Source: Candidatus Omnitrophota bacterium (GTDB lineage: Bacteria; Omnitrophota; Gorgyraeia; Zapsychrales; Fredricksoniimonadaceae). From it: a stretch of 42,031 nt of DNA. Both the position numbers and the translations under genes were made by a program. The notes under the pieces are model-generated. The model saw nothing but the letters and a program-made list of their open reading frames with translations, was not told the origin of the DNA and made no database searches. Shown in pieces: positions 30,464-33,354 of this stretch. Location of the stretch: positions 1-42,031 of the forward strand of contig JADFYF010000011.1 of NCBI GenBank assembly GCA_015233165.1, read 5' to 3'. Position 1 is the first letter of the stretch. Every line of letters begins with the position of its first letter.

Positions 30464-31669
30464 ATGCGTGATGTTTTAACCTTTATTCTCGCCGGTGGGA
30501 AGGGGGAACGTTTAGATCCCTTGACCCGTGACCGCGCCAAACCCGCCGTCCCTTTTGGCGGGATTTATAGAATTATCGATTTTGCCCTCTCTAATTGTGT
30601 TAATTCCGGTCTTCGTCGGATTTTTCTTCTGACGCAATACAAATCTTTTTCTCTTCAGCGTCATATCCTTGAGGGATGGAATATTTATTCCAATCAATTA
30701 GGGGAATTCATTGATGTTATTCCAGCGCAGCAACGTGTTTCAGCGGATTGGTATCGAGGGACAGCCGATGCGATCTATCAAAACTTCCAGATGATTCGAG
30801 ACTATAATCCCAAGCTTATCCTGATTCTAGCGGGAGACCATGTTTATAAGATGGATTACCGCAAGATGATTGAATACCATCTGTCCAAGGGTGCTGATAT
30901 GACGGTGTCCTGTATCCAGATGCCAAAGTCTGAAGCGGTTAATTTTGGTGTCGTCGAGGTGGATAGCAATAAGATGGTTGTTGGTTTTCAAGAAAAACCA
31001 TCTAATCCTAAGACAATCCCGTCTGATCCTAATGCTATTTTTGGTTCGATGGGAATTTATTTGTTTAATGCCGAAATGCTGTTTAAGGAATTAGAAATTG
31101 ATGCGGCAAGGATAGAATCAGAACATGATTTTGGAAAAAATATTATTCCTCAGATGGTTCAGAAAAAGATGAAGGTCTTTGCCTATGATTTTGCGTTAGA
31201 AAATGATCACTCTACTTATTGGAAAGATATTGGAACGCGCGATGCGTACTATCAGGCGAATATGGATCTGCTTGGCGGCGAACCCAAATTTAGTCTGTAT
31301 GAGAAGGTGTGGCCTCTTCGAACGTATCACCATCAGTATCCTCCTATTCGTGTGATGACCGTGGAACAGGAAAAGGGTTCTATTATTAATTCTATTATTT
31401 CCGGTGGATGTGTGGTCGAGGGCGGGCATGTGGATCACTCCGTGCTTTCGTCTAATGTTTATATTAAAAAACATGCCAGGGTGGCAAGGTCTGTACTGAT
31501 GGAGGGGGTTGTTGTTGGTGAAGGTGCCCAGATTCAGAACGCCATCATTGATAAGGAAGTGACCATTCCTGCACATTCGAAGATAGGTTTTGATTTGGAA
31601 TCGGATCGCCAGCGTTTTGTGCTGACAACATCTGGTATAGTTATTGTTGCGAAGAAGACATCCTTGTGA
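30464..31669 (+). CDS. glgC: Glucose-1-phosphate adenylyltransferase
   Basis: The enzyme makes ADP-glucose, the glucosyl donor for glycogen, and is usually the regulated step of storage. The 401 residues match bacterial GlgC. It has the pyrophosphorylase signature GGKGERLDPLTRDRAKPAVPF, WYRGTADAIYQNF, LAGDHVYKMDY and VGFQEKPSNPK. The catalytic domain is followed by a left-handed beta-helix with hexapeptide repeats (GGCVVEGGHVDHSVLSS, GVVVGEGAQIQNAI). It begins two bases after the TPR gene. Other glycogen genes are not in the window. Confidence 0.96.
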   Translation: MRDVLTFILAGGKGERLDPLTRDRAKPAVPFGGIYRIIDFALSNCVNSGLRRIFLLTQYKSFSLQRHILEGWNIYSNQLGEFIDVIPAQQRVSADWYRGTADAIYQNFQMIRDYNPKLILILAGDHVYKMDYRKMIEYHLSKGADMTVSCIQMPKSEAVNFGVVEVDSNKMVVGFQEKPSNPKTIPSDPNAIFGSMGIYLFNAEMLFKELEIDAARIESEHDFGKNIIPQMVQKKMKVFAYDFALENDHSTYWKDIGTRDAYYQANMDLLGGEPKFSLYEKVWPLRTYHHQYPPIRVMTVEQEKGSIINSIISGGCVVEGGHVDHSVLSSNVYIKKHARVARSVLMEGVVVGEGAQIQNAIIDKEVTIPAHSKIGFDLESDRQRFVLTTSGIVIVAKKTSL

Positions 31670-31684
31670 TAAATTGTCGGATCT

Positions 31685-32896
31685 ATGATCATACAACCTA
31701 AAATTCGTGGTTTCATCTGCACAACAGCCCATCCTATTGGATGCGAAGCTCATGTTGTCGAACAAATCAATTACATTAAGTCCAAGGGGCCTATTGCCGG
31801 TGGTCCTAAGAAGGTTTTAGTGATCGGTTCTTCTACCGGATATGGATTAGCGTCGCGTATTACTGCTGCTTTTGGTTGTGGGGCGGCGACCATGGGTGTT
31901 TTCTTTGAAAAAGAGTCTGACGGTAAAAGAACAGCCACGGCGGGCTGGTATAACACAGTTGCTTTTGAGAAGGCGGCTCTTGCCCAGGGGTTATACGTGA
32001 AGAGTTTTAATGGTGATGCGTTTTCTGATGAAATGCGACAGAAGGTTACTGCGGCGATCAAGAATGATTTAGGACAAGTGGATTGTGTCATCTATTCTTT
32101 GGCTTCCCCTAGACGAGTGGATCCTAAAACAGGTCAGCTTTATAAAAGCGTTCTAAAACCCAAAGGGGTTGCTTACACCAATAAAAGTATTGATTTTGAA
32201 AAGAATGAAGTGATCAGCGTCACACTTGAAACTGCCGTCGATCAGGAGGTTCAAGACACCATTAAGGTCATGGGCGGGGAGGATTGGCAGCTGTGGATTG
32301 AAGCTTTAACTAATCAGGGTCTCTTAGCCCCTCAGGCGGTGACTGTAGCCTATTCCTACATCGGCCCTGATGTCACGACCCCCGTCTATCGCAATGGTAC
32401 CATTGGGGCTGCTAAGGACCATTTAGAGGCAACAGCGCATAGTTTGGATGCTCTTATCAAGAAGCAGGGCGGTCGTGCCTTTGTTTCTGTTAATAAAGCT
32501 TTAGTAACCCAGAGTTCTTCCGCCATTCCTTTTATTCCTTTGTATTTTGTTATTTTAATGAAGATTATGAAGCACAAGAATATTCATGAAGATTGCATTC
32601 ATCAAATCCAACGTTTGTTTGCGGACCGCTTGTATAACAATCGTCCCCTGACAGAGGTGCCGACAGATGGACAGGGACGTATCCGTATCGATGAGTTAGA
32701 AATGCGTCAGGATGTTCAGGAAGAGGTTGCTGCTGTTTGGAAAAACATCACGGATATGAATCTTTGGCAGGTTTCCGATGTCAAAGGCTATAACGAAGAT
32801 TTCCTCAAACTCTTCGGTTTCGGCATGGCCGGCGTTGATTATAACGCTGATATCAACCCCGAAGTCCTTATTCCTTCCATTATAGAAAATCAATAA
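31685..32896 (+). CDS. fabV: Enoyl-ACP / trans-2-enoyl-CoA reductase FabV
   Basis: FabV reduces the enoyl intermediate in fatty acid elongation using NADH. The 403-residue length is typical. The N-terminus IIQPKIRGFICTTAHPIGC is diagnostic, followed by the NAD-binding VLVIGSSTGYGLASRI. The active-site Y-x8-K motif is exact: Y235 and K244 in YRNGTIGAAK, which match the family positions. Other matches are VDCVIYSLASPRRVDP and the C-terminal FGFGMAGVDYNADINP. FabV enzymes are known for low sensitivity to triclosan compared with FabI. It ends the transcription unit before cspA. Confidence 0.96.
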   Translation: MIIQPKIRGFICTTAHPIGCEAHVVEQINYIKSKGPIAGGPKKVLVIGSSTGYGLASRITAAFGCGAATMGVFFEKESDGKRTATAGWYNTVAFEKAALAQGLYVKSFNGDAFSDEMRQKVTAAIKNDLGQVDCVIYSLASPRRVDPKTGQLYKSVLKPKGVAYTNKSIDFEKNEVISVTLETAVDQEVQDTIKVMGGEDWQLWIEALTNQGLLAPQAVTVAYSYIGPDVTTPVYRNGTIGAAKDHLEATAHSLDALIKKQGGRAFVSVNKALVTQSSSAIPFIPLYFVILMKIMKHKNIHEDCIHQIQRLFADRLYNNRPLTEVPTDGQGRIRIDELEMRQDVQEEVAAVWKNITDMNLWQVSDVKGYNEDFLKLFGFGMAGVDYNADINPEVLIPSIIENQ

Positions 32897-32940: not shown

Positions 32941-32969
32941 TTGACAAACACAAGAACATAGTGCATACT
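32941..32969 (+). promoter_or_regulatory. Sigma-70 promoter upstream of cspA
   Basis: A perfect TTGACA -35 (32941-32946), a 17-base spacer and a CATACT -10 (32964-32969) predict a start near 32976, about 128 bases before the cspA ATG. A long leader is typical of cold-shock genes. A terminator-like hairpin lies between this promoter and the gene. Confidence 0.7.
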
Positions 32970-33012
32970 CTCTTTCGTAGTAAGGAGTAGATAAGGGAAA
33001 AGAATCATAAAG

Positions 33013-33047
33013 CCGCAAGGTGGACGATATCGCCTGGCGGTTTTTTT
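33013..33047 (+). terminator. Intrinsic terminator / possible attenuator in the cspA leader
   Basis: CCGC (33013-33016) pairs with GCGG (33037-33040); after one A-G mismatch, AGGTG (33018-33022) pairs with CGCCT (33031-33035, including one G-T wobble). The stem is followed by seven T residues (33041-33047). The form is that of a rho-independent terminator. It lies downstream of the predicted cspA promoter and upstream of the gene, so it could end read-through from fabV, attenuate cspA, or end a small leader RNA. Confidence 0.65.
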
Positions 33048-33103
33048 ATCTTTGCAATTTGCCGTTATTTACTCAATGTTTAGAAAAAGGAGGTAGTAAA
33101 GTA

Positions 33104-33304
33104 ATGGCAAAAGGAACTGTAAAGTGGTTTAGCGACCAAAAAGGTTTTGGCTTCATTACTCCTGAGTCAGGTAAAGATGTTTTCGTTCATCACAGTGCAA
33201 TTCAAGGTGAAGGTTACAAGTCTTTAAGTGAAGGTCAAGCTGTAGAGTTTGATATCACCACCGGACCCAAGGGGGAACAAGCTCAAAACGTAGTTAAAAT
33301 ATAA
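33104..33304 (+). CDS. cspA: Cold shock protein (CspA family)
   Basis: This single cold-shock domain of 66 residues binds single-stranded RNA or DNA and acts as an RNA chaperone. The start is fixed by the strong AGGAGGT ribosome binding site at 33088-33094 before ATG 33104; a GTG at 33020 would add 28 residues encoded inside the leader hairpin region and is rejected. RNP1 is KGFGFI (residues 13-18) and RNP2 is VFVHH (26-30), preceded by [10 protein letters not shown] long leader before it and a strong terminator after it suggest a monocistronic transcript. The symbol is by family; the paralogue type is unknown. Confidence 0.95.
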
Positions 33305-33323: not shown

Positions 33324-33354
33324 GCCCTGTACCGTTCTGGTACAGGGCTTTTTT
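33324..33354 (+). terminator. Intrinsic terminator after cspA
   Basis: A perfect 10-bp stem GCCCTGTACC / GGTACAGGGC with a five-base loop is followed by six T residues. It starts 20 bases after the cspA stop and is a textbook rho-independent terminator. Confidence 0.95.

Follow-up and report, generated by a model that had tools for sequence, protein, structure and literature searches.

The window, meaning the whole 42,031-nucleotide stretch analyzed here, is contig C22 from a MAG of Omnitrophota that is 78% complete and comprises 2.29 Mb in 187 contigs, and the closest named relatives by cold-shock protein are Omnitrophota MAGs. On its forward strand, the cold-shock gene cspA is preceded by a leader that contains a promoter, a terminator hairpin, and several further RNA helices:

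30464-31669, + strand: glgC
31685-32896, + strand: FabV-type enoyl reductase (Pfam)
32941-32969, + strand: sigma-70-type promoter, TTGACA (32941-32946), 17-nt spacer, CATACT (32964-32969)
32985-32994, + strand: 5ʹ arm of helix P1, GAGUAGAUAA, near the mRNA 5ʹ end (window folding, P1 covariation)
33002-33006, + strand: candidate 5ʹ strand of helix S1, GAAUC, whose partner would lie in the P2 loop; the window copy is weak (sequence inspection)
33009-33044, + strand: P2 terminator hairpin, arms 33009-33022 and 33031-33044 (folding, covariation)
33026-33031, + strand: candidate 3ʹ strand of S1, GAUAUC, inside the P2 loop (sequence inspection, family support)
33041-33047, + strand: terminator U-tract, T7
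33058-33074, + strand: switch strand UUUGCCGUUAUUUACUC, partner of either the P1 5ʹ arm or the Shine-Dalgarno (SD)-start region, the latter pairing termed OFF (MFE, covariation)
33065-33074, + strand: 3ʹ arm of P1, UUAUUUACUC (folding, covariation)
33088-33094, + strand: SD sequence AGGAGGT
33094-33111, + strand: start region UAGUAAAGUAAUGGCAAA, sequestered within the OFF helix (folding, covariation)
33104-33304, + strand: cspA, cold-shock protein of 66 aa (Pfam CSD, 102.8 bits)
33324-33354, + strand: terminator 3ʹ of cspA
from 33480, + strand: SMC-like gene

The cspA ATG at 33104 lies 57 nt 3ʹ of the T run. The promoter, the hairpin, its seven Ts, the AGGAGGT, and this spacing are all as a first-pass annotation had described them, according to the window sequence, a promoter scan, and folding. 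That annotation also saw no clear promoter between the hairpin and cspA, and the scan of this interval likewise finds none, so a second promoter 3ʹ of the hairpin was rejected for the window.

The cspA transcript probably starts near 32976. A promoter scoring at least 9/12 occupies the expected place in 97 of 100 related leaders (24 of 500 in a random-position control), and TTGACA is found in 88 of the 100. Across the 100 aligned leaders, the first base of P1 mostly follows the -10 box by 8 to 9 nt, which places the P1 5ʹ arm right at the 5ʹ end of the mRNA. Downstream of the hairpin, a site of at least 9/12 is present in only 18 of the 100 relatives. The csp, helicase, and other leaders share the arrangement of a transcription attenuator, in which a terminator separates the gene from its only good promoter. 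Separately, 48 of the 100 relatives carry a TATAAT, TAAAAT, or TACAAT box just 3ʹ of the P1 3ʹ arm, approximately 24 nt before the ATG. This box, which mostly has a weak -35 and is absent in the window, could be a second promoter in other lineages.

The P2 hairpin (AAAGCCGC-A-AGGUG/CGCCU-G-GCGGUUUU, 33009-33044) has a folding energy of -18.1 kcal/mol (z -3.2), a value equaled in 1 of 200 shuffles. In A2, an alignment of 103 rows fitted to P1 and P2, 94% of P2 cells are paired and 8 of 11 pairs show changes on both sides. At least five Us occur within the 9 nt after the stem in 47 of 47 non-redundant leaders, which makes P2 and its U-tract the most conserved parts of the leader and universal among these diverse sequences. 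P2 is not a chance hairpin. In the window and across the family, it has the form of a textbook intrinsic (Rho-independent) terminator, a GC-rich stem followed directly by Us. Conservation of the hairpin among relatives had been named as one of the points on which the first-pass hypothesis would stand or fall, and this conservation extends throughout the phylum. The accompanying claim, that a terminator lies inside a promoter-driven leader and must be read through, is likewise upheld by the unfailing U-tract and by reuse of the element before DEAD-box helicase and other genes. Judged from sequence, termination would yield an RNA of approximately 72 nt ending near 33047.

P1 is a long-range helix that joins the 5ʹ end of the mRNA to a segment 3ʹ of the terminator. 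In A2, the 5ʹ sequence GAGUAAAUAA pairs with UUAUUUACUC in 96% of cells, and double changes occur in 9 of 9 pairs of the main helix; none of 500 shuffles matched the observed values for P1 and P2. OFF comprises 14 pairs between the downstream P1 3ʹ segment and the SD-start region. It is paired in 86.8% of cells versus 33% to 55% in slid versions and has double changes in nine pairs. Because P1 and OFF both use the strand 33065-33074, they exclude each other. Since A2 had been fitted to P1 and P2, an alignment-free duplex-energy test was added, in which each segment was paired with its own partner and with permuted partners in 47 leaders of less than 72% identity. This gave z -9.2 for P1 and z -4.5 for OFF, and three structure-free controls gave p 0.86 (5ʹ segment with SD), p 0.53 (loop with 3ʹ arm), and p 0.13 (upstream segment with SD). 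A home-made, tree-based, all-pairs covariation test, whose null is too broad and hence too conservative, returned no pair below E 0.05 (best 0.27); its top ranks are mostly P1 and P2 pairs. Covariation is strong for P1 and P2, moderate for OFF, and weak for S1. A pairing of the x/a segment with the U-tract was weak (p 0.02 with all leaders and 0.07 with the non-redundant ones) and was set aside. Several lineages (L053, L069, L077, L080, L020, and L032) carry a second long stem-loop, placed after the terminator and before the P1 3ʹ arm or SD.

Folding of the growing window transcript places these helices in order. A transcript ending at 33047 folds only P2; in those ending between 33075 and 33104, P1 is complete in the MFE structure and the SD is free; and from 33110 on, OFF is the MFE structure, both at 10 and at 37 °C. 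P1 forms in 42 of the 47 diverse leaders if the transcript stops before the SD, and in the full leader the probability of OFF exceeds 0.5 in 21 of 47. OFF has fewer than 8 of its 14 pairs in 5 of 47 leaders and is absent or weak in several lineages; it is a common layer, not a universal one. Folding for mutually exclusive structures had been proposed in the first-pass annotation; the clear ones are P1 versus OFF, acting on the SD and start codon, not terminator versus antiterminator. Both helices covary, and the SD-start region thus has the alternative structures expected of a csp thermoswitch. In equilibrium folding from 5 to 55 °C, however, OFF is favored throughout in the window leader, with ON lying above it by 7.4 kcal/mol at 10 °C and 4.5 kcal/mol at 37 °C. 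The proposed comparison of low- and high-temperature folds therefore gave no switch, an equilibrium temperature switch was rejected for the window leader, and the leader is not classed as a thermoswitch. In this model, the RNA by itself does not switch thermodynamically with cold, and any effect of cold would therefore be kinetic or protein-assisted.

S1 is a weaker helix, in which a segment upstream of the P2 stem would pair into the P2 loop as a pseudoknot. In the duplex-energy test on 47 leaders, its core reached z -3.5 (p 0.0003) and the version with the outer part z -4.0. A further test gave p=0.0013 for the family and p 0.35 for non-csp leaders alone (n=9). In the window, S1 is short and bulged. 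Transcripts that end before the P2 3ʹ arm have 6.5 to 6.9 expected S1 pairs. Because S1 would pair before this arm exists, it could delay or reshape the terminator. With moderate support from sequence comparison, S1 is a candidate antiterminator.

The family is tied to cold-shock genes. R1, a covariance model built from 30 leaders, matches at E≤0.01 in 171 of the 285 genomes of Omnitrophota, or in 141 of 216 when only the good genomes are counted, and the window copy scores 109 bits (E 5.5e-15). Among 120 matches fetched, 119 lie before a reading frame with a cold-shock domain, and the remaining one is at a contig end. The order upstream of csp in relatives is promoter, GUAGUAAAU, a purine-rich stretch, often GAUCUUAGACC, the hairpin and U-tract, GCCAUUAUUUACU, SD, and AUGGC. 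R2, a leader-only model, finds the window copy and nothing else up to E 5 in its genome and matches in 94 of 147 genomes of the class. Of 20 weak R2 matches, 17 lie before csp; the other 3 lie elsewhere, each with a good promoter. Presence of the element beyond the phylum was rejected, as 11 genomes with csp from outside Omnitrophota yielded only three matches (E 0.0067-0.05), none of them before csp. These data bear on the idea that the terminated product of approximately 72 nt is itself a functional small RNA and that csp is expressed by occasional read-through. Such an RNA would have a defined size, its own promoter, and a U-tailed hairpin, as in sRNAs. It is nevertheless very improbable, as R1 matches stay linked to csp, P1 and OFF need leader sequence beyond the sRNA, and S1 pairs inside the element. 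The separate RNA of approximately 70 bases suggested in the first-pass annotation draws support solely from the product expected from attenuation anyway.

The attenuator also occurs without the rest of the leader. R3, an attenuator-only model of 55 positions whose seed included three non-csp sequences and no helicase or infA leader, has one match in the window's genome (E 4.6e-9; next 0.21) and 58 matches in 39 genomes of the class. Among 44 R3 loci read, csp follows in 27 and not in the other 17. Where these non-csp loci bear promoters, which are strong, they precede genes for DEAD-box RNA helicases, IF-1, NMO, radical-SAM-type proteins, and small Cys-rich proteins; five other matches (L296, L324, L328, L336, and L338), in odd contexts and with no good promoter, were treated as chance. 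As an unbiased check, helicase genes were gathered from 59 class genomes on protein similarity alone; among 30 of their loci, R3 lies just 5ʹ of the helicase or its short operon in 8 (L339, L344, L350, L351, L356, L358, L359, and L366), against a chance expectation of about 0.007 of 30 loci. Three further helicase loci share an operon: L357 and L360 follow csp behind the csp attenuator, and L340 follows NMO. In the infA control, R3 was found at 1 of 30 loci, the infA-helicase operon already in the helicase count, and infA was rejected as a general target. The helicase, infA, and other non-csp leaders have neither P1 nor OFF, which makes the attenuator a module that can stand apart from them.

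This separability weighs on a purely translational view, in which P1 and OFF regulate as a thermoswitch while P2 is a rigid spacer and the U-tract binds Csp or another protein, without termination. P1 and OFF are indeed well supported, the second csp gene of the window's genome (L001) seems to have a P1-like helix around a hairpin without a U-tract, and Csps bind U-rich RNA (PMC7825780). However, the helicase, infA, and NMO leaders keep P2, U-tract, and promoter in the absence of P1 and OFF, and the textbook terminator form holds in every one of the 47 leaders; we consider this view quite unlikely. A metabolite riboswitch, with S1 and P2 as a ligand-binding pseudoknot and the csp and helicase genes answering to the ligand, would account for a compact pseudoknot joined to a terminator and for NMO and radical-SAM-type genes among the targets. 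This is scarcely credible, as the loop and upstream segments are highly variable in sequence, unlike a ligand pocket, and csp and RNA helicase genes are the commonest targets.

Several of the accompanying genes recur in more than one setting. A small Cys-rich protein of approximately 45 to 57 aa (e.g., MHKIKTSYKGRKCKLSGCKQILSIYNHEEYCHIH), which has no Pfam or NCBIfam match, adjoins csp and DEAD-box helicase genes (L277, L282, L316, L317, L334, L340, and L351). Radical-SAM-type and NMO-type genes (L272, L278, L281, L284, L285, and L326; L286 and L290) follow csp in some genomes, and in others they come immediately after the attenuator. The NMO-type enzyme has PF03060 in L290, and the radical-SAM-type protein (MKIVFIEPRA...), of which a 60-residue piece had no Pfam match, was assigned by look. 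Two infA genes per genome are present in G221 (L358/L369, G221:C40) and G232; in G221, one of them follows the attenuator and shares its operon with a DEAD-box helicase.

Knowledge of cold-shock control comes from a small number of model bacteria and concerns chiefly leader structures described gene by gene. Protein-dependent attenuators, such as those of TRAP, PyrR, and Bgl/Sac, combine a leader terminator with an alternative upstream pairing. The Omnitrophota leader may resemble them in this respect, although S1 is a candidate pseudoknot strand and not a classical antiterminator. No Rfam family matches the leader at gathering score. With the coding sequence included, RF01766 (cspA) scores 69.8 bits against a gathering score of 78, and it does not match the leader alone; membership was rejected, since the sub-gathering match depends on the coding part. 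No published description of such an RNA in Omnitrophota was found within the open literature searched.

Known csp systems are similar in part. In E. coli, the cspA thermosensor adopts two exclusive folds, with the RNA made in the cold being open (Giuliodori 2010, as summarized in PMC9947658 and PMC9450479), and it shares with the present element a cspA-family leader and a pair of mutually exclusive folds that expose the SD to different degrees. However, these summaries describe no terminator there, and the helices differ. PMC8155936 and PMC9947658 report the csp leaders of E. coli, Listeria, and S. aureus as thermosensors or thermoswitches. As outlined in the former review, the thermoswitches of Listeria cspA and S. 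aureus cspB/cspC are likewise csp leaders, but without a phylum-wide promoter-proximal terminator and not common to helicase genes. CspA-family proteins of E. coli (CspA/C/E) are presented as antiterminators in the account of PMC4347634 (Bae 2000, Phadtare 2002), and B. subtilis CspB and CspD alter terminator read-through, mostly favoring termination (PMC8307031). Csp proteins thus change read-through in both species, although, in the cases these sources present, the terminators belong to other operons and no conserved csp leader element is involved, whereas the Omnitrophota terminator lies within the csp leader. The cold-shock set of E. coli includes RNA helicases and IF-1 (infA) (PMC9947658). 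The sequences preferred by BsCspB are GTCTTT-like and U-rich ones (PMC7825780); a CspB-preferred motif, [GA]UCUU (segment a), occurs in 17 of 47 leaders and is absent in the window, whose U-tract is present. This segment is therefore no more than a lead.

The leader represents a new RNA element whose proposed mechanism combines known kinds in a new way, and it has the appearance of an RNA switch for the cold response that was not described before. In anatomy, conservation, and gene company, the sequence comparisons support attenuation. The preferred reading, to which we assign a probability of roughly 0.6, is a promoter-proximal attenuator common to a cold-shock regulon, to which csp adds a translational switch. 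In the first layer, a transcript from the promoter at 32941 would meet P2 and its U7 approximately 72 nt downstream, and cspA would be made only by read-through, because the terminator precedes the gene. The P2 loop may pair with the segment just 5ʹ of the stem (S1) as part of an H-type pseudoknot able to form before the terminator 3ʹ arm is made. As this layer is placed without the second before DEAD-box helicase, infA, and other genes, it would be the shared control element of the regulon. In the second layer, restricted to csp, the strand 33058-33074 of the read-through RNA would first pair with the 5ʹ end as P1, leaving the SD free, and once the start codon has been made, it could refold onto the SD-start region as OFF. 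Control by cold or by Csp, as in the autoregulation put forward in the first-pass annotation, is a proposal; most likely, cold and/or Csp scarcity would give more read-through and a longer P1 state, whereas abundant Csp would lower expression.

The same evidence can be read as constitutive attenuation, with P2 fixing a low read-through of strong promoters without any sensing, and P1 protecting the 5ʹ end and spacing the SD. The prominence of P2 and the U-tract in conservation, the lineages without OFF, the lack of a temperature switch at equilibrium, and the position of the P1 5ʹ arm, like that of a 5ʹ-end-protecting stem, are consistent with this. Against it, the element is rare, with one match in the genome, and concentrated on cold-shock genes; the S1 segment, for which a plain terminator has no need, is conserved and covaries with the loop; and OFF covaries beyond controls. 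We judge constitutive attenuation unlikely. A more ambitious form of regulated attenuation, to which we would give somewhat less than even odds, is that of a new family in which one pseudoknotted terminator controls the cold-shock regulon of the phylum (csp, DEAD-box helicase, and, in one lineage, infA). Read-through, set by temperature and by Csp and helicase activity, would report the RNA-melting state, csp adding its translational switch, and the regulon would therefore, on this proposal, correct itself. If regulated attenuation is correct, a short and recognizable attenuator common to csp and RNA helicase genes would be a cis-acting, Omnitrophota-wide element of the cold-shock regulon, a natural system in which to test Csp action at terminators, and a means of predicting targets in uncultured bacteria; its small size suits it to reporter tests in laboratory strains.

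Other csp leaders show related architectures. The second csp gene of the window's genome (L001, G000:C147) has a promoter and, by eye, a P1-like GGUAAAU/GUUUACU pairing, and L060 has a P1-like GGUAAAC/GUUUACC pairing, also by eye. The paralogous leader carries a hairpin, GUCGCAA/UUGCGAC, without a U-tract and is apparently P1 minus the terminator. In two records named Nitrospirae (L138 and L139), the csp leaders have a different terminator-like hairpin, CCGCAAAG...CTTTGCGG plus Ts, 52 to 57 nt before the ATG, so terminators in csp leaders may reach beyond Omnitrophota.
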